From contig NZ_JAKJHX010000006.1 in assembly GCF_021648855.1 (NCBI RefSeq), positions 14,682-78,681 on the forward strand: a stretch of DNA of 64,000 nt, given 5' to 3'. Positions 7,397 through 63,813 of the stretch are shown in pieces. Under the pieces are notes generated by a model that saw only the letters and a list, made by a program, of their open reading frames with translations, was not told where the DNA came from and did no database searches. The stretch is from Tychonema litorale BBK16 (GTDB lineage: Bacteria; Cyanobacteriota; Cyanobacteriia; Cyanobacteriales; Microcoleaceae). How positions within the stretch are numbered: the stretch's first letter is position 1; each line of letters opens with the position of its first letter. The position numbers and the translations under genes were made by a program.

Positions 7397-10300
7397 CTAT
7401 CTCAAAGTATGTTGAATTCGCTCTAACAATTGGGCAGCCGACAGAGAAGAAGGCAAAATTTTAGCAGATACTTCTTGCAACATAAAGTTGATCGCCTCCG
7501 ATTCCGAAGTTGCGACAGACCGATAATCCAACACTAAAATAGGCGGTTTTTCGGTCATTTGTCGCAGATTAGATAGTGCTTGCAACATAGCGGATGATTC
7601 TGAGGGCGCATCTCGCAAGCAAAGCAAAACCAAGTCAACGCTTTGAGATTGCAACTGCTGCAAAACTTCCTTCCAACGGAGACCAATTGTTCCTCGAAAA
7701 CCTGCGGTTTGGATGTACTGAATCAAAGCTTGAAAGTTGGGTAGAAAAAACTCAGAGCTGGGAATGGGAAACTCGATATTTGTCGATCGACAATCGCAAT
7801 GTTGCACTTCATCTGTATCCCTATTTTCCTCAGCAGTTCCAGCTAAGTCAGATAAAGTCGAAATGTCGGCAAATAAAATGCTGGGCTTCCAACTCATACC
7901 AGCAGCTACTTGAATAACTTGCCACAAAGCAGGTGCTACTAGAGGAGTGTCGGAAGTGACGTTACCGTTCGCCAAACACGGAAATACTGACAGTCCCTTG
8001 ACTTGATTGGCTAGTTGTGTAGTTGTGGGGTCTAAAGTTACCAAAGGGAGAGAACTCAAACTCCGAGACAGACTTAACTGTTTGATAAAAGCTGAGGGGC
8101 TTTCTAGTTGATTTGTACCGTCTAAGACGATGACATCGGGACACCAGATGCGGGCGACAAGTTCTGCCTGACCGAGGTCATCGGCTTCTAAGACCCGGCA
8201 ATAGTTATGGTTCAGTAATAAAGATGAACCTTGGGAGGAACTGTTTTGCGGGCTGAGCCACAAAATAGTCAAAGAACTTCTCACATTGCGCGCATTGGTG
8301 TCGCGACCGATTAAATCGCCCAGTAGTATTCTCAAAGCGGGTTCTGTGACGGGTAAGCTTAAGAAGCCTTCGGCTCGGTTGACTGAGGCTCGTTCTTTTT
8401 CACCTCTGGTGGCGGTGACGATCGCAGGTATCGATCGAGTATCTGGGTCGCTTTTGAGCAGTGTCAGCACGTCCCAGCCCGACAGCAGTGGCAGTAGCGG
8501 GTTGAGGAAAATCACTTCTGGACTGAACCTGCGGGCTTTTTCTAGTGCTTCGGTGCCGGAACGGGCGACGATTACTTGATAGCCTAAACCTGTGAGGACG
8601 TTGGTTAAATTTTCGATATATTTCGGAACTGCTTCGACGATTAATACTAGGCGAGATCGAGAACCCGCGATCGGATACTGATATTTTGGTTTGAATAATT
8701 CTGGATCTAGGGCTGTAGATTCTGCTGATTCTTCCGTACTGTTTCCTGGAGGATTTGGTGGCAAGAGCAAGGTAAATTGAGAGCCTTGACCTTCTGAGGA
8801 AATAAACGAAACGTCTCCGCCGTGAAGTCTAGCTAAACGTTGAGTCAGTACCAGCCCCAGTCCGGTTCCTTGAAATCGGCGAGTCAGGGGGCTTTCTAAC
8901 TGTTGGAATTTTTGAAATATCAAGTGTTGTTTGTCTGCGGGAATTCCGATACCCGTGTCCCAAACGGTGAATGCAATCCAGCCTTCCCAAATATTCACTT
9001 TCAAGCCAATTTTGCCGCCTATTTCTGTAAATTTTAAGGCGTTGGATAAAAGGTTGACGAGCATTTGTCGCAACCGCAGTTCGTCGGCAATTAAGTGGCT
9101 TAGTCCTGGTTCAATTTCTAGTGTAAATTCGGTTTCGATGGCGGATTCGCCCGCAGGGTTTGTGGTAGTTACCTCCGATTTTAGTGTGGATTTTTCTTCT
9201 TGTTTTTGAAGTAGTTGAGCTTGTTCAAAGGCTCTGTTGCAGGCGCTGGTAATTTCTACGGGTTCAAGGTTTAGTTCTAGTTGCCCGGTTTCCATCCTGG
9301 TCAAGTCTAAAATATCGTTAACTATTGTCATTAAGTGTCGCCCGCTTTTATGGATTAGTTTGGCGTAGCGAGTTTGACGATCGTTGAGTTCTCCGATTAA
9401 TTTATCTTTGAGGAGGCTGGATAAACCGAGGACTGCGGTGAGGGGGGTTTTTAGTTCGTGGCTGATACAGGACAAAAATTCGTCTTTGAGTCGATTGAGA
9501 TGGATTAAGTCTGCATTTTTTGCTGCTAGTTCTTTGGCGACTAAATGTTCTTCGGTGACATCTTGTCCCATTACTAAAATCAGGTTGTCGGAGAGTGGCT
9601 GTTTGACAAATTGCCAGATTCGTTCTTGACCTTTTTGGACGGGACAGTCACAAATGTAGGTGTCTGGTTTGCCTGCGATTGGACACCAAGCTGGGCCCTT
9701 TAAGGTGGATGGGGAGGCGGCGGCGTACAGGGGTAGGGGACAACTGGCTGCGGTGGAGTCGCGATCGCCCGATCGCGCTACTCCCACTAAGCTTCTGAAT
9801 TCTTGGGTGACGGCTAAATTTGGCGCGCTCTTATATTCGGTTGGCTCCTTGCTTGGTTTATGGGAAGGTGGCCGATGGGGATTGACTGCTGGTTCTGGGA
9901 CTGGTTCGGGGCCGGCTCCGAGTAAGATTCGCCATGCTGCGTTTTGACTGACTATTTGTCCGGTGGGGGTTTGCAATCTCAGGGGTAGGGGCAGTTGTTC
10001 TAGGAGTTGAACCAGGGAATCGAGGTTTTCTGAGGGTTTTAGTCCTGCTTCTAGAAAGCGTAATTGAGCGTCTAGGGCAGTGGCAATGACGGATTGTGCC
10101 GGTACCTGTCCAAGTTCTCTGGCTGCTGTTTGTTGAGCTTTTAGGCTGTATTCTGAGGCTGTGGAGTGTTTGATGGAGTTGCTGTTTAGGGCTGCGAATT
10201 GCATCAGGCTCATAATGTTGAGCAGTCCCAAAAATTGGTCTTCGGAATTGGTCAGGGCGATCGGGCGATCGAAATATTTGCCCTCGGTTTCGCCTCCCTC

Positions 10301-10618
10301 TCCTGGGGTATGAAGTTCTGCTGTTTGCAGATATTGCCAAAATTCGGTCACGCTCAAATCTCCCGATATTGTTCTCAGGGGTGCGATCGCGATCGGGTTC
10401 TCTGACAGGGGTTGTTGCCATTTGCCGTCTCTGTCTGCCAGTGGCATGAGGCTGCGGAGGTAAACTAATCCTAGGGGCTGTAGCTGTTCGTTGACTACTA
10501 CGATGCGATCGCAGTTTCCCTGACTGAAAATTGACCGCAGTGTTTTGAGCTGAGCTGTCGGTCGGCACAGTGACACTGGTTCGATAAAATTTTGGAGACT
10601 GGGGCGAGTTTGTGGCAT
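7397..10618 (-). CDS. CBS-PAS hybrid histidine kinase with three receiver-like domains, divergent from kaiA
   Basis: A cytosolic 1073-residue kinase. A CBS pair occupies about residues 15-140 and a PAS-like segment with a cysteine-containing insert 205-355. The HisKA domain has His387 in SHELKTPL. The ATPase domain has NLLSNALKF (about 522-530), DTGIGIP and GTGLGL. Three receiver-like domains follow. The first (about 656-772) has Asn706 where the phospho-acceptor Asp should be, and the acidic pair is also lost. The second (about 782-890) keeps Asp833 in IVLDG but little else. The third (about 912-1073) has Cys1000 at that place. Most of the output half therefore looks non-phosphorylatable and may work through binding. 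It faces kaiA across 310 bases, suggesting a clock input or output role by position only. Confidence 0.85.
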   Translation of the reverse strand: MPQTRPSLQNFIEPVSLCRPTAQLKTLRSIFSQGNCDRIVVVNEQLQPLGLVYLRSLMPLADRDGKWQQPLSENPIAIAPLRTISGDLSVTEFWQYLQTAELHTPGEGGETEGKYFDRPIALTNSEDQFLGLLNIMSLMQFAALNSNSIKHSTASEYSLKAQQTAARELGQVPAQSVIATALDAQLRFLEAGLKPSENLDSLVQLLEQLPLPLRLQTPTGQIVSQNAAWRILLGAGPEPVPEPAVNPHRPPSHKPSKEPTEYKSAPNLAVTQEFRSLVGVARSGDRDSTAASCPLPLYAAASPSTLKGPAWCPIAGKPDTYICDCPVQKGQERIWQFVKQPLSDNLILVMGQDVTEEHLVAKELAAKNADLIHLNRLKDEFLSCISHELKTPLTAVLGLSSLLKDKLIGELNDRQTRYAKLIHKSGRHLMTIVNDILDLTRMETGQLELNLEPVEITSACNRAFEQAQLLQKQEEKSTLKSEVTTTNPAGESAIETEFTLEIEPGLSHLIADELRLRQMLVNLLSNALKFTEIGGKIGLKVNIWEGWIAFTVWDTGIGIPADKQHLIFQKFQQLESPLTRRFQGTGLGLVLTQRLARLHGGDVSFISSEGQGSQFTLLLPPNPPGNSTEESAESTALDPELFKPKYQYPIAGSRSRLVLIVEAVPKYIENLTNVLTGLGYQVIVARSGTEALEKARRFSPEVIFLNPLLPLLSGWDVLTLLKSDPDTRSIPAIVTATRGEKERASVNRAEGFLSLPVTEPALRILLGDLIGRDTNARNVRSSLTILWLSPQNSSSQGSSLLLNHNYCRVLEADDLGQAELVARIWCPDVIVLDGTNQLESPSAFIKQLSLSRSLSSLPLVTLDPTTTQLANQVKGLSVFPCLANGNVTSDTPLVAPALWQVIQVAAGMSWKPSILFADISTLSDLAGTAEENRDTDEVQHCDCRSTNIEFPIPSSEFFLPNFQALIQYIQTAGFRGTIGLRWKEVLQQLQSQSVDLVLLCLRDAPSESSAMLQALSNLRQMTEKPPILVLDYRSVATSESEAINFMLQEVSAKILPSSLSAAQLLERIQHTLR

Positions 10619-58275: not shown

Positions 58276-59556
58276 ATGAAAATCATCGCCTACTCCTACA
58301 GCGAACCTCTGCTAGAAGCACCACCTGCACCAGGATTTTGGGGTCAAGAAGTCGATCGCACCTATCAAGACTTAGGAGGACGACAACAACTGCAACAACT
58401 CCTCAAAGACTGCCAAACAGAACCAGTCAAATACCTGTTAATTCAGCGTTTTGAACAACTAGGCGACACACTACAGGAAGTGTGCGCGCACTTAGCCCAA
58501 CTCGAAACCCTCGGCATCGAAATAATTGTCACAGACGAAAAACCCACAGAAAACAGAGCAAACTTACTCAAACTTCTAGCAGAAATCCAGCGCAGCCAAC
58601 ACAGCCGCAGCATTCGCAAAGGACACGCCCGCAACCGGATCAAATCCCGTCTCCCACCAGGTAAAGCTCCCTACGGCTATCGGCGCGGCAAAGAGCGCTA
58701 CGTGATCGATAAAACCACCGCCCCCACCGTCAAAGACTTTTTTGAACACTTTCTGATCTACGGTTCCTTGCGGGGTTCCGTGCGCTACTTAGCCAAGAAA
58801 TACCACAAAAAAATCTCTGTTAGTACCGGCCGCCGCTGGCTGACAAATCCCGCTTACCGAGGCGATTTAGAATATCAAAACGGTCAAGTAATTTCTAATA
58901 CCCACATCCCGATTATTTCCAGAGAAGAAGCAGCCCAAATAGACAGGTTGCTGCGCCGCAACCGCCGCCTGCCTCCCCGCACCGCCAGCGCCCCCCGTTC
59001 CCTTGCAGGTTTAGCAATTTGTGCCGAATGTCGATCGCCCATGACAGTCGCAAAAGTTACCGCCTACCGCAAGGAAAGAGAATACCTTTATTTGCGACCA
59101 ATTAACTGTCCCAAACAGCCCAAATGCAGTGGCCTTTCCTACGACGAAGTATTGCAATTAACCATAGCAGGAATTTGTCAGAATTTGCCCGATGCCGTTG
59201 CTGGCTTGAAAATGCCGGATATGAATGGAATTAAAGTCGGCATCGGAAAGGCGATCGAATTTAAAGAACAAATCATCAATCAACTACCAGCCCTGATTGA
59301 AAATGGCATTTTAGACACAGAAACTGCCGAATTGAGAGTCTACAAAATCCGCACAGAAATGGCCCAATTGCAAAGTAAACTCGCACAATTACCACCAGTG
59401 AATCTGCGAGAAACAGCTCAAACTGTTTCTCTTCCCCAATTTTGGCTAGATTTATCAGAATCGGAACGCAGATTTTACTTTCGAGAATTTATTGATCGGA
59501 TTGAGATAGTACGGGACAATGCAACTTTTAAACTGCAAATAATCTTCATTTTTTAA
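58276..59556 (+). CDS. Large serine-recombinase-like protein lacking standard catalytic residues
   Basis: A 426-residue protein with the layout of large serine recombinases. A resolvase-like N-terminal domain (1-85) comes first, then a recombinase domain (PGKAPYGYRRGKERYVID onward, about 130-235), a zinc-ribbon (CAECRSPM ... CPKQPKC, about 252-285) and a C-terminal coiled coil. The N-terminal domain normally has Y-x-R-x-S and a D-R-L-x-R motif. Here the places read AYSYSEP and RFEQLGDT, so the catalytic Arg residues are absent and the Ser is out of register. It follows the VOC gene by three bases with no mobile-element ends in view, which suggests a resident chromosomal gene. It may bind DNA without recombining it, or use altered chemistry. 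Confidence 0.82.
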   Translation: MKIIAYSYSEPLLEAPPAPGFWGQEVDRTYQDLGGRQQLQQLLKDCQTEPVKYLLIQRFEQLGDTLQEVCAHLAQLETLGIEIIVTDEKPTENRANLLKLLAEIQRSQHSRSIRKGHARNRIKSRLPPGKAPYGYRRGKERYVIDKTTAPTVKDFFEHFLIYGSLRGSVRYLAKKYHKKISVSTGRRWLTNPAYRGDLEYQNGQVISNTHIPIISREEAAQIDRLLRRNRRLPPRTASAPRSLAGLAICAECRSPMTVAKVTAYRKEREYLYLRPINCPKQPKCSGLSYDEVLQLTIAGICQNLPDAVAGLKMPDMNGIKVGIGKAIEFKEQIINQLPALIENGILDTETAELRVYKIRTEMAQLQSKLAQLPPVNLRETAQTVSLPQFWLDLSESERRFYFREFIDRIEIVRDNATFKLQIIFIF

Positions 59557-59619: not shown

Positions 59620-60771
59620 CTACAAGCTTTTTTTAGCCTTGAGCCAATAGGTGATCATCTCTCCTTTACCTTTAACCACGATCGCGCCTCTTTCCTCAAA
59701 GACATATCGATCTTTTAATTCCTCATAAATAGCAGTAGTAACTTGAATATACCCTGGCAATCCTTGAGATTCCATCCGAGAAGCAACATTAACAGTATCT
59801 CCCCACAAGTCATAGGTAAATTTTTTAGTGCCAATTACGCCAGCAACTACTGGCCCCGTATGAATGCCAATCCGAATTTGAAAAGGTTCGCCCGTGTCAG
59901 TTTCAAAATGTGCGATCGCTTCAAGCATATCTAACGCCATATTTGCGATCGCCTCTACATGATCTGCCCTCGGCAGTGGCAACCCCCCTGCTACCATATA
60001 AGCATCCCCATTCGTTTTGATTTTCTCCAAACCGTGTTTTTCAGTTAGTTGGTCAAATGTTGAAAAAATCTGGTTGAGAAAATTTACCAATTCCAGAGGT
60101 GAAATTCTAGCAGCAAGAGAAGTAAAATCAACAATATCAGCAAACAAAACTGTTGCTGAGTCAAACCTCTCCGCAGCAGAACCCTGGCCTTTTTTCAAAT
60201 TTTCAACAATCGCTGCTGGTAAAATATTTAACAATAGATGATCAGATTTTTCTTGAGCAAGGCGTAAAGCTAGCTCAACCCCCTGCCGCTCTTTAATTTC
60301 ATTTTGCAAACGTTCGACAAGTTCTTCTAATTGCTTGGTTTGCTCTTGAAGTAACTTTTGTTGACTTTGAATTGTTAACTGATTGGCTACTCGTGCCAAT
60401 ACTTCTTTATCTTGAAAAGGTTTCGTAATATAGTCAACTGCTCCCACATCAAAGGCTTTCACCTTATCTAAAACGTCATCTAATGCGCTTAAGAAAATCA
60501 CTGGAATTGAACAGGTTTTTGGTGAAGCTTTCAACTTTGCACATACCTCATATCCATTCATTTCTGGCATCATTACGTCCAACAGAATTAGAGTCGGCGG
60601 AAACTCCTGCACAGTAGCGATCGCCCTTTGCCCGTTCAGCGCTTTACGAACCTGATACCCTTGTTCAGTGAGGATTGTAGATAAAAGCCGCACGTTATCT
60701 GGTTTATCATCAACTACTAGAATGCTGGCTTGGATTTTAGGATATTGATTGCTGTCCATGCGATCGCTCAC
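59620..60771 (-). CDS. Receiver-adenylate cyclase (class III)
   Basis: A soluble protein of 383 residues expected to make cyclic AMP from ATP. The receiver (15-130) has Asp65 in LLDVMMPEMNG and Lys in YITKPF. A coiled coil (135-180) joins it to a class III catalytic domain (about 200-383). Metal-binding Asp212 (FADIVDFT) and Asp256 (NGDAYM) are present, with transition-state Asn328 and Arg332 (VNVASRME). The base-recognition pair is Lys252 and Asp321, the adenylate rather than guanylate type. The start is GTG at 60771, overlapping a GCGATCGC octamer, or the ATG at 60759. It lies 24 bases after the ethylene-receptor-like kinase and is probably in its operon, so that kinase may phosphorylate it. 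Confidence 0.93.
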   Translation of the reverse strand: MSDRMDSNQYPKIQASILVVDDKPDNVRLLSTILTEQGYQVRKALNGQRAIATVQEFPPTLILLDVMMPEMNGYEVCAKLKASPKTCSIPVIFLSALDDVLDKVKAFDVGAVDYITKPFQDKEVLARVANQLTIQSQQKLLQEQTKQLEELVERLQNEIKERQGVELALRLAQEKSDHLLLNILPAAIVENLKKGQGSAAERFDSATVLFADIVDFTSLAARISPLELVNFLNQIFSTFDQLTEKHGLEKIKTNGDAYMVAGGLPLPRADHVEAIANMALDMLEAIAHFETDTGEPFQIRIGIHTGPVVAGVIGTKKFTYDLWGDTVNVASRMESQGLPGYIQVTTAIYEELKDRYVFEERGAIVVKGKGEMITYWLKAKKSL

Positions 60772-60795: not shown

Positions 60796-63700
60796 TTAAA
60801 TCTGACGCGCCACCACTCCCGATTTAGCTAGATCTATAATATCGTCAAATAGGAAATTATGCACTAAAGCAGTTAAAACTTGTGCGGCGGGCGCAAATTC
60901 TCTAGGCATTTCCTCAATTAACCGGATAATTTTATCATCGGAACATTCATGAGCAGCATCAGATATCTTCTCCATCCACTCAGCAGGCATTTGCCCAAGT
61001 TGTGATTCTACAGATTGATGGCTGACAACTTCGCTAATTTCGCTTTCATTTTCTAGTTTGGCTTCAACAGGTTCCTCGTAAATATACTGGATTCCTAAAA
61101 GTTCTTCCATTTTCGCAAATAAGATATTTGCCTCGAAAGGTTTACGAATGAAATCATCACAACCTGCTGCTAAAATAGTTTTTCGTTCCTCTTCAAAAAC
61201 GCTAGCAGTAAGCGCAACGATCGCGGTTTGTTTTCCCAGAGGATGAGCTTTAATTTGTCTTGTGGCTTCATAGCCATTCATGACAGGCATCTGCATATCC
61301 ATCCAGATCAGGTGCGGTTGCCAATCCTCCCAGATAGCAATAGCTTCCTGACCATTTCTAGCTTCTCGAACGAGGATGCCTAGTGGTGACAATAATCTGG
61401 CTATGACTAGACAGTTATCGGCGCGATCGTCAACCACCAAAATCCGGTATTCTGGTTGATTAGGTGCTAAACTAATTACTTTTTTTTGCAGCTTAACCAT
61501 TTTAACATCGATAGGATCGGCAAGTCTGATTTCAATATCAAATGTAAACTGACTTCCCAAGCCTGGTATACTATTGATAGTAATCTTTCCTCCCATCATT
61601 TGTACAAATTTGAGGCTAATTGGTAAACCTAATCCAGTCCCCTGTTGAGATTTTTGACCTGTTTTTGTTTGCTCGAAGGGTTCAAATAACTTATTCATCT
61701 CTTCTGCGGCAATGCCAGATCCCGTATCTTCAATTTCAAACTGAAGGCGTAAAAATTCCTGGCGAATAGAATTCGTGTTTACAGAATCAAAGTCCGCCTG
61801 CGCGGACTGATTAGAACCAGTTTCTTCTACCTTATTTTTCACTCGTAAAGTGACGCTACCCGTCTCTGTAAATTTGATGGCATTTCCCACAAGATTAATC
61901 AAGATTTGGCGCAATTTACCCTCATCTCCATTAACAAAGTGTGGTACGCCGTCAACCACTTCAAAATTTAGCTGCAATTTCTTAGATTCAGCTTTCAATC
62001 GAAACATCTCTTCTAAGGTTTCTAGCAGGTGCATTAAATTAAAACTGCTTTCATTAAGCTGACTTCTCCCCGCTTCAATTTTGGACATTTCCAAAATGTC
62101 ATTAATTAGCGAAAGCAAGTGTTCGCCAGCACGATTAATAATTTGTAGGTGCTCTTGGTGTTGATTGTTTAAGGAGGAATCGCGTACCATCACCTGACTA
62201 AATCCCAGAATGGCATTCAGGGGAGTCCGCAATTCGTGGCTCATAGAAGAAAGGAATTCGCTCTTGGCGCGGTTAGCTCTATCAGCAGTTACGACAGCTT
62301 TTTGTAATGCTATTTCTGCCAATTTGCGATCGGCAATTTCAGTTTTGGCTTGTTCAAAAAGGATGGATTGCTGGATGGCAATTTCTAGCTGTACAGAAAT
62401 TTGCTTGAGAGATTCTATCTCAGAAGAGTTCCAATTTTTTTGACTGCGGCAGTGATGAGCAATGAGTAGTCCCCATAAATTGTTACCTTGTAAAATGGGA
62501 ACCACGAGGTTAGCTTTAATTTCAAACTGGCTCAGTAAATTAACGTGGCACTCTGAAAGACCTGCCGTGTAAATATTATCGATCGCGCGAATGTGTCCCT
62601 GCTCGTAAACAGAGACACAGCCTTCCCGAAAACAAGGGTCATTAATATCAATTCCCAAAATCGGCATTGTACCGACTGCTACAGACTCGACGGCTATAAA
62701 TCCACTCCAATCTGGGTTAAAACGGTAAATAACTGTTCTATCAGTTGCCAAAAACTGGCGCACTTCTTCAACAGCCATTGTCATCACTTCTTCTAGGTTA
62801 AGAGAGGAACGAATCCGCTCTTGAATAGCATCCACGAGCCGCTCCCTTTTTAATTGTTGCTGCAAGGCTATTTCCGCGTCTTTTCGAGCCGTAATATCTA
62901 CCCCATAACCAACGCATTCCACAGGTATGCCAGCAGCATCTTTGACCAACTTAATCTCATCGTATATCCAGCGATAACTACCGTCTTTGTGCCGTTCACG
63001 ATATTCGTAGGAAATGGATTCTTTTTCCAATATTAGATCGAATGAAGTAGCAACAACCTCTCGATCTTCTGGGTGAATGATGCTATGCCAATCAAGGGAA
63101 CCATTAACAAATTCTCGCGCTTCGTAGCCCATCATTGAAATAATGTTCTCGCTGACAAATGTCACGTCATAATTTCCGCCTAATTTGCAGCTAAAAATAA
63201 CCACCGGAGTGGCTGCTAGCAAATATTGCAGGCGTTCGGTAACGGATCGCAATTTTAACTCGGCTTGCTTGCGATCGCGAATTTCCGTTTCTAAGTATTT
63301 GTTAGTTTCTCTCAACTGTGCGGTGCGCTCTTGCACTTTAATTTCTAAGTCATCATAAGCACAGCGCAAAGCTAGTTCTGCATTTTCACGCACGCCGATT
63401 TCCGACTGCAACTTGCTATTTATTGCCTCTAATTCTTGTGGGGTTTTCAAAGATAAAAACTGTGGCAATAGTGTTACCATTTGTCCAGCCGTGAAGCAGG
63501 AAACGAGGGCAGTTGCTGCTTTCTCAATTCCCGAAAGCCAATAAGCAGAATGCCACAGCGTCCAAATCTCTAATAAGTGGCCTGTGCCGCACAGAATAAT
63601 AAATGCACCAAATAAAGCAAATATTCCTAAAAAAGGAACATCGCGCCGCTTGCATATGAAATAGATCAGCATCGCCGGAATTGAAAAGTAGGCGATCGCA

Positions 63701-63813
63701 ATTAACAAGTCGCCAGTTACGTGTAGCCACACTAAAGGTGTTTGCCACAGATAGCAGTGACCATGTGGCATATACTGAGTTGGGGAAAATAGATTTTTGA
63801 GTAATTCCCACAT
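60796..63813 (-). CDS. Ethylene-receptor/cyanobacteriochrome hybrid histidine kinase (UirS/SynEtr1-like)
   Basis: A membrane kinase of 1005 residues. Residues 15-120 form the three-helix ethylene-binding domain: PHGHCYLW, GDLLIAIAYFSIP with Asp35, and LCGTGHLLEIWT with the copper-ligand pair Cys75/His79 as in plant ETR1. A PAS domain (190-312) and a GAF domain (320-485) follow. The GAF has DPCF (392-395) and Cys422-His423, both cysteine sites of DXCF cyanobacteriochromes. HisKA has His526; the ATPase domain has NLVGNAIKFT and GTGLGLP. The receiver (790-905) has Asp839 in WMDMQMP, and a helical tail ends the protein. Synechocystis Slr1212 has the same sensor order but no receiver, as I recall. 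Ethylene and light sensing are inferred from intact residues. Confidence 0.92.
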   Translation of the reverse strand: MWELLKNLFSPTQYMPHGHCYLWQTPLVWLHVTGDLLIAIAYFSIPAMLIYFICKRRDVPFLGIFALFGAFIILCGTGHLLEIWTLWHSAYWLSGIEKAATALVSCFTAGQMVTLLPQFLSLKTPQELEAINSKLQSEIGVRENAELALRCAYDDLEIKVQERTAQLRETNKYLETEIRDRKQAELKLRSVTERLQYLLAATPVVIFSCKLGGNYDVTFVSENIISMMGYEAREFVNGSLDWHSIIHPEDREVVATSFDLILEKESISYEYRERHKDGSYRWIYDEIKLVKDAAGIPVECVGYGVDITARKDAEIALQQQLKRERLVDAIQERIRSSLNLEEVMTMAVEEVRQFLATDRTVIYRFNPDWSGFIAVESVAVGTMPILGIDINDPCFREGCVSVYEQGHIRAIDNIYTAGLSECHVNLLSQFEIKANLVVPILQGNNLWGLLIAHHCRSQKNWNSSEIESLKQISVQLEIAIQQSILFEQAKTEIADRKLAEIALQKAVVTADRANRAKSEFLSSMSHELRTPLNAILGFSQVMVRDSSLNNQHQEHLQIINRAGEHLLSLINDILEMSKIEAGRSQLNESSFNLMHLLETLEEMFRLKAESKKLQLNFEVVDGVPHFVNGDEGKLRQILINLVGNAIKFTETGSVTLRVKNKVEETGSNQSAQADFDSVNTNSIRQEFLRLQFEIEDTGSGIAAEEMNKLFEPFEQTKTGQKSQQGTGLGLPISLKFVQMMGGKITINSIPGLGSQFTFDIEIRLADPIDVKMVKLQKKVISLAPNQPEYRILVVDDRADNCLVIARLLSPLGILVREARNGQEAIAIWEDWQPHLIWMDMQMPVMNGYEATRQIKAHPLGKQTAIVALTASVFEEERKTILAAGCDDFIRKPFEANILFAKMEELLGIQYIYEEPVEAKLENESEISEVVSHQSVESQLGQMPAEWMEKISDAAHECSDDKIIRLIEEMPREFAPAAQVLTALVHNFLFDDIIDLAKSGVVARQI

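Follow-up and report, generated by a model that had tools for sequence, protein, structure and literature searches.

Can one membrane receptor in a cyanobacterium pass both ethylene and light on to cyclic AMP (cAMP)? This question is raised by two neighbouring genes at one end of a 64,000-nucleotide stretch of DNA from Tychonema litorale BBK16 (hereafter the window, i.e., the whole stretch that was analysed). The first encodes a hybrid sensor histidine kinase with an ETR1-type ethylene-binding domain (EBD; Pfam ETR1_N) and a cyanobacteriochrome-type GAF domain, and the second an adenylate cyclase with its own receiver (REC). The two genes are a real, conserved two-gene unit, the parts of which are ordinary and the combination of which is new within the literature searched. 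We consider it probable, at roughly 60%, that the membrane kinase integrates ethylene and probably blue light and phosphorylates the adjacent adenylate cyclase. At the level of parts and pairing, this mechanism is well supported by the sequences.

The original prediction, made from the letters of the window, described the kinase reading frame, Cys75 and His79 in the motif LCGTGHL, DPCF at residues 392-395, and CH at residues 422-423, and all of these were found exactly at these residues (Table 1). The Pfam order in the kinase is ETR1_N, PAS_3, GAF, HisKA, HATPase_c, and Response_reg, followed by a C-terminal tail, and the domain and motif assignments lie far beyond chance.

The residues of the ethylene-type site are in place. 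The EBD matches PF25487 at 132.5 bits, compared with a curated cut-off of 27, and presumably contains three membrane helices, as we expect from its family; a PDB search with this domain returned a single match, weak and irrelevant. In an alignment that includes AtETR1 and SynEtr1-like proteins, the window EBD has the same residues (D35, Y42, I45, P46, I72, C75, and H79) as AtETR1 at the positions needed for binding. The D, C, and H positions come from PMC11819568, in which D25, C65, H69, and K91 carry the numbers D35, C75, H79, and K98 in AzoEtr1, identical to the numbering in the window kinase. Seven residues are reported as required for ethylene binding by AtETR1 (PMC6682694). The seven positions are invariant, and K98 nearly so, across 23 aligned sequences (alignment A2, consisting of the window, 19 orthologues, and three more distant relatives). 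A loss of other conserved copper-site residues, named at the outset as the point where the ethylene claim could fail, was looked for in the alignment, and the residues are retained. The Pfam match and the kept positions together predict an ETR1-type domain with the residues needed for binding.

The bilin-type site is likewise present. Among PDB entries, the GAF domain is most similar to 6oap (E 8.7e-51) and is also related to 3vv4 (E 3.7e-31, 38% identity), which we take to be TePixJ. In the HMMER alignment to 3vv4, DPCF lies over DPCF and CH over CH with the same 28-residue spacing between the cysteines, in agreement with a six-sequence alignment. D-x-C-F and CH are kept in 21 of 21 aligned sequences (the window included, one partial), as are Cys75 and His79 in the same 21, which predicts a two-cysteine DXCF bilin-type GAF domain. 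Close GAF domains do not always bear the second cysteine, since the best match, 6oap, reads DQYF at this position. The genome also appears able to make bilins, with three Fe_bilin_red matches and one Heme_oxygenase match over the cut-off. In typical DXCF GAF domains, a dark state that absorbs blue interconverts with a green photoproduct, phycocyanobilin is isomerised to phycoviolobilin, and the second bond is made at bilin C10 (PMC11284453), whereas the photocycle of UirS is UV/green (PMC5812497). Because the motif here is the canonical DPCF, in contrast to ETCF or ESCF in the SynEtr1-like proteins, blue is a better guess than UV. The window GAF domain thus probably senses blue rather than UV light, although colour is not reliably readable from sequence. 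The violet/UV input first proposed is therefore kept as a light-type, two-cysteine sensor and weakened as to its colour.

The GAF domain might nevertheless be the only working sensor, with the EBD acting as a membrane anchor or as a sensor of a signal other than ethylene, and the output still being cAMP. In one relative (genome G391, locus L027) the EBD and the remainder of the kinase lie in different reading frames next to an open cyclase gene, so this relative may do without the EBD, or the assembly may be in error. Besides, EBDs are common in cyanobacteria (ETR1_N occurs in 89 of 386 sampled genomes), and no ethylene data for this lineage were found in the literature searched. On the other hand, seven invariant binding positions and a nearly invariant K98 are more than an anchor needs, and ethylene is bound by the domains of SynEtr1 and AzoEtr1, which have these residues (PMC6682694, PMC11819568). 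We regard a switch driven by light alone as unlikely.

The catalytic residues of the second protein are also conserved. D65, S95, and K117 of the receiver and D212, D256, K250, D321, N328, and R332 of the cyclase domain are kept in 19 of 19 aligned sequences, which thereby have the features of a receiver-regulated class III adenylate cyclase. We take D212 and D256 to bind metal, K250 and D321 to set the choice of ATP, and the three receiver residues to be the phospho-Asp, the Ser/Thr, and the Lys. CyaC-type proteins combine kinase, receiver, and cyclase in one protein; the window kinase and cyclase, encoded by two genes, are not of this type. The cyclase gene had been placed 24 bases after the kinase gene. 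The adjacency holds, but the figure assumes a start at GTG 60771; the ATG at 60759, four codons further in the same frame, is kept in 19 of 19 aligned cyclases (the window included), and the residue at the GTG position varies, so a gap of 36 bases and a protein of 379 aa are more likely.

Conservation of the gene pair goes well beyond the window. The receiver-cyclase gene directly follows the kinase gene at 20 of 20 loci, the window included. This count comprises 19 loci and L018, whose contig ends inside the receiver of the downstream gene, and excludes L027 (EBD out of frame; a cyclase does follow), L029 (kinase cut off by the contig end), and L052 (begins within a kinase). A cyclase orthologue (at least 68% identity) occurs in 26 of 61 genomes of the family, including that of the window, and five further family genomes have only a relative at 53-56%. 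The kinase EBD, at 82% identity or more, was found in 25 genomes, all among these 26, and the remaining one is G391, with its kinase EBD in another reading frame. All 26 cyclase-bearing genomes accordingly have the kinase as well, on the same contig in 25; in the exception, G413, the cyclase is found at the edge of a contig.

A further line of evidence is the kinship of the receivers. In a tree of 68 rows, obtained after dropping eight, mostly long branches, one clade (support 97/89) holds all 26 partner receivers of tail-bearing kinases, the cyclase receiver included, and four receivers of the same genome as the window; three of the 26 are rows from this genome labelled from their neighbours. 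This clade cuts across the output domains of the partners. The 22 partner receivers of EBD kinases without the tail (four of them UirR-like) all fall outside it, as they did in an earlier quick tree with all rows. Since the cyclase receiver groups with the partner receivers of tail-bearing kinases, the tree supports it as the cognate target of the window kinase. With the 20 loci and the 26 genomes, the link between kinase and cyclase is far stronger than an adjacency in one genome, and the expectation that the output would be cAMP, different from the UirR transcription-factor route, gains from the predicted receiver-adenylate cyclase partner.

Based on these features, we propose the following scheme. 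The kinase would be a membrane protein, probably a dimer, with an N-terminal domain built like a copper-dependent ethylene receptor and a GAF domain built like a DXCF cyanobacteriochrome, which would carry phycocyanobilin or phycoviolobilin on Cys422 and bond it a second time, reversibly, through Cys394. The HisKA module would be biased by ethylene and probably also by light, blue versus green. A phosphoryl group would then pass from His526 straight to the receiver of the neighbouring cyclase, or reach it under the control of the kinase's own receiver, and change the cAMP output. We infer that ethylene and a bilin are bound, which colours are absorbed, that phosphate is transferred and in which direction this alters cAMP, and that the two inputs are used jointly rather than separately. 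Precedents exist in SynEtr1, which senses ethylene and light, and in AphC, which purportedly phosphorylates CyaC (PMC4284465).

Several observations, together with the split EBD of G391, weigh against this scheme. Because the kinase has its own receiver, a route other than direct transfer to the cyclase exists, and no histidine phosphotransfer (HPt) domain was seen in the kinase or cyclase proteins. Within the receiver clade, the cyclase receivers stand beside no particular partner group, the inner supports being low. A downstream receiver gene accompanies 77 of 96 kinases with the tail versus 18 of 53 without it, but this link is not significant when kinship is allowed for (six independent pairs, median p 0.5) and was not upheld. 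Cross-talk is possible as well, since the genome has 29 cyclase matches and many other kinases. The target phosphorylated by the kinase might thus be its own receiver or a different regulator, with the cyclase answering to several kinases, as is also suggested by at least four other genes for histidine kinases with receivers at or near receiver-cyclase genes in the same genome (contigs C25, C162, C188, and C2) and by two single-chain proteins that combine all three modules. The co-occurrence of the two genes, nearly always on one contig, and the grouping of the cyclase receiver speak against such a role, and we hold it to be quite improbable.

The tail itself, of about 65 residues, recurs in many hybrid kinases of cyanobacteria, and the receivers encoded downstream of these kinases group in a single clade. 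It had no Pfam match in the proteins scanned. A role as HPt was rejected for lack of a conserved His: some orthologues have Y, Q, N, or R in place of the tail His, and it is not conserved in paralogues either. The tail is possibly a docking element.

The original prediction read the kinase as having the sensor order of SynEtr1/UirS (Slr1212), extended by a receiver. The order EBD-PAS-GAF, the two bilin cysteines, and the membrane kinase are indeed shared; orthology was rejected on the kinase family, the GAF tree, and the partner receivers. The alignment that had been proposed was made with SynEtr1-like stand-ins (L114 and L115, 844-aa proteins labelled by their length, domains, and adjoining AraC-type regulator). 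The GAF motif is ETCF or ESCF (ExCF) at four SynEtr1-like loci in place of DxCF. The kinase of L114 is of the HisKA_2 type, with two PAS regions and an HTH_AraC neighbour, whereas the window kinase has HisKA and a cyclase partner; SynEtr1-like proteins have an AraC-type, UirR-like partner and no receiver in the kinase. A single clade of window and SynEtr1-like GAF domains was rejected by the approximately unbiased (AU) test (p 0.011), and the EBD tree places the window EBD away from theirs, the one-clade alternative being only marginally disfavoured (AU p 0.053). Considering also that their partner receivers lie outside the clade of the cyclase receiver, a UV-working SynEtr1/UirS orthologue with an added receiver is very improbable in spite of the shared order and cysteines.

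Other known systems come near to the pair in part. GeiEtr2 of Geitlerinema sp. PCC 7105, compared by its published description, is similar in its length of about 1000 aa, its EBD, PAS/PAC, GAF, kinase, and C-terminal receiver, its seven kept ethylene residues, and a nearby cyclase gene, but the product of the gene grouped with it has a diguanylate cyclase domain instead of an adenylate cyclase one (PMC6682694). In Anabaena, the photoreceptor histidine kinase AphC is thought to control the adenylate cyclase CyaC by phosphorylation; in the passages available, it is described as phytochrome-like and an ethylene domain is not mentioned, whereas the genes of the window are adjacent and the bilin domain is of the DXCF type (PMC4284465). 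Light-activated cyclases such as the LOV-AC of Microcoleus chthonoplastes, a cyanobacterium that also bears the name Microcoleus, likewise couple light to cAMP, but with sensor and cyclase in one chain (PMC4284465), whereas the window pair implies phosphotransfer between two proteins. In the literature searched (titles and the openings of abstracts, mostly without subscription papers and without bioRxiv preprints), neither an ethylene-domain kinase with an adenylate cyclase partner nor a link from ethylene to a second messenger in cyanobacteria was found. This novelty is tempered because GeiEtr2 already has the EBD-PAS-GAF-kinase-receiver layout and AphC-CyaC suggests kinase-driven cAMP, and because the genome itself has other kinase-receiver and receiver-cyclase neighbours and single-chain versions. 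In Synechocystis, blue and UV-A light raise cAMP and motility, and one review sets two candidate photoreceptors aside without establishing any (PMC3546692); ethylene changes phototaxis in two cyanobacteria (PMC6682694). With a conserved pair in which an adenylate cyclase is coupled to both an ethylene-type and a blue-type sensor, the questions of the cAMP photoreceptor and of an ethylene-linked second messenger become testable with two purified proteins.

A survey of 116 EBD proteins (100 places fetched among the matches listed, with open frames of at least about 640 aa, and 11 earlier loci) sets the pair among its relatives. Four classes were distinguished among proteins with a GAF match of at least 150 bits, of which A, C, and D are themselves named by their second cysteine; the weaker GAF matches were dropped (the second ones of L125, L126, L185, and L222, and those of L162, L174, L232, L233, and L234). 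Class A, that of the window, has five further loci from one family only, with DxCF and CH, HisKA-REC-tail, and a receiver-cyclase gene downstream. Class B has 19 loci with HisKA-REC, a detected tail in 18, and a downstream receiver-bearing gene in 16, including six with GGDEF and eight with a histidine-kinase ATPase domain; these loci are the most GeiEtr2-like in output. Class C consists of five loci with DxCF and CH and another kinase type (by motif) without receiver, and class D of the four SynEtr1-like loci. A same-strand cyclase gene follows five of the 116 proteins, i.e., the five of class A, and none was found on the same strand within 600 bases outside this class with a cyclase model built from class A. 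All 19 class B GAF domains have a cysteine 10-16 residues before the DXCF-aligned motif (DTYL type) and a canonical CY. Insert-Cys cyanobacteriochromes have near-UV or violet dark states (PMC5240096), and the class B domains are assigned to this type because their cysteine position matches that description. Six loci (L182, L187, L194, L196, L206, and L219) combine an EBD and insert-Cys GAF kinase with a following receiver-GGDEF gene and are candidates for near-UV/ethylene control of cyclic di-GMP.

The trees of the separate domains give differing kinships, and because of this the window kinase looks like a mosaic protein. In the GAF tree (65 rows), class A groups with the GAF domains of two non-EBD kinases of its own genome (support 100/93; 63-65% identity). 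One clade of A, C, and D (AU p 0.0013) and one of A and B (1e-9) were both rejected; a clade of A and C was not (p 0.22), so the fusion may have arisen once or more often. The EBD tree nests class A with members of B and C (support 97, 30 rows; 99/86 for 15 rows after dropping seven long branches). In a quick kinase-receiver tree, class A belongs to the family of kinases with the tail and stands apart from those bearing the GAF domains closest to its own; the tree supports no more than this and does not show class A as sister to class B.

It is possible, though we would bet against it, that one receptor gates cAMP by coincidence of gas and blue light as a member of a modular series in which colour chemistry and output have been exchanged. 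The shared plan of such a series would be the ethylene domain, a two-cysteine bilin GAF domain, a tail-bearing kinase, and a related partner receiver; swapped would be DXCF here for insert-Cys in the 19 class B relatives, and cAMP here for GGDEF enzymes or further kinases in 14 of these 19. The classes offer a natural series for comparing different sensor chemistries and outputs on similar frames. Two candidate cysteines are present in each of the 33 surveyed EBD proteins whose GAF match reaches 150 bits. A preference of EBDs for two-cysteine GAF domains was nevertheless not upheld, considering the naming of classes by cysteine, the 10 of 13 distinct strong canonical-Cys GAF domains of the window's genome that are two-cysteine too (best 30 of 51 matches), and the loci L053 and L057, which are without the canonical Cys.

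Table 1. Positions of the features in the window and, in the last two rows, at other loci
Feature	Position	Strand	Basis or detail
Hybrid sensor histidine kinase gene	60796..63813	-	1005 aa from ATG; intact open reading frame, Pfam, orthologues
EBD, residues 27-122	63448..63735	-	PF25487, E 7e-39
Cys75 to His79, candidate copper-site residues	63577..63591	-	Motif LCGTGHL starting at residue 74; sequence alignment
PAS domain, residues 218-303	62905..63162	-	PAS_3, PF08447
Cyanobacteriochrome GAF domain, residues 339-480	62374..62799	-	PF01590; PDB relatives 6oap, 3vv4
DPCF motif, residues 392-395, candidate second bilin Cys394	62629..62640	-	Alignment with DPCF of PDB 3vv4
Cys422-His423, candidate canonical bilin cysteine, 28 residues after Cys394	62545..62550	-	Alignment with CH of PDB 3vv4
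HisKA (516-582, predicted phospho-acceptor His526) and HATPase_c (629-761)	61531..62268	-	Pfam, alignment
Receiver of the kinase, Response_reg 791-901, Asp839	61111..61443	-	Pfam, alignment
C-terminal helical tail, about residues 938-1003 (about 65 residues)	60805..61002	-	Alignments
Receiver-adenylate cyclase gene	59620..60759	-	379 aa from ATG 60759; 383 aa from GTG 60771; intact open reading frame (59620-60771)
Cyclase receiver, Response_reg 17-128; Asp65, Ser95, Lys117	60388..60723	-	Pfam, alignment
Class III cyclase domain, Guanylate_cyc 200-378	59638..60174	-	Pfam (E 2.9e-68), alignment
Frame-split kinase of L027 (L317)	7959-10570		
Short ETR1-type kinase upstream of the orthologous kinase	L010 912-2462; L015 6903-8447; L017 7062-8612; L018, L019, L021, L022, L025, L026		

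The window is the end of contig C6 in a cyanobacterial genome of 5.27 Mb. Among named relatives, in a ranking from which records of the genome itself may be excluded, best-segment identity is highest for Microcoleus sp. CSU_2_2 (88%), followed by Tychonema bourrellyi (86%) and the Microcoleaceae metagenome-assembled genome UBA9251 (86%, partial), in keeping with a host of the Microcoleus/Tychonema type. At nine loci (Table 1), a second ETR1-type kinase stands directly upstream of the orthologous kinase and makes a three-gene row; it is short (about 515 aa), of the HEINNP type, and 78-97% alike. None was seen upstream in T. bourrellyi (L024). The upstream neighbour is unreadable in the window, since only 187 bases separate the kinase start from the last base of the contig (78,681 bases), where the window also ends.

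Two further ETR1-type domains are encoded in the genome, on contigs C107 and C18. The short kinase on C107 was rejected as the upstream gene of the relatives, being 53-55% identical to it. The third ETR1-type kinase (L122, 9697-12591, on C18) is followed by a small receiver gene, and similar pairs are present in L193, L209, L212, L213, and L216. The kinases of L125 and L126 have an extra stretch between EBD and PAS with a weak GAF match, DSYF or DNYF and SY, and no bilin cysteines; L018, L019, L021, L022, and L025 contain an insertion of similar length. Finally, a serine recombinase gene (window 58276-59556, forward strand) is convergent with the cyclase gene, and in L319, L323, and L324 a similar protein is encoded beyond the cyclase.

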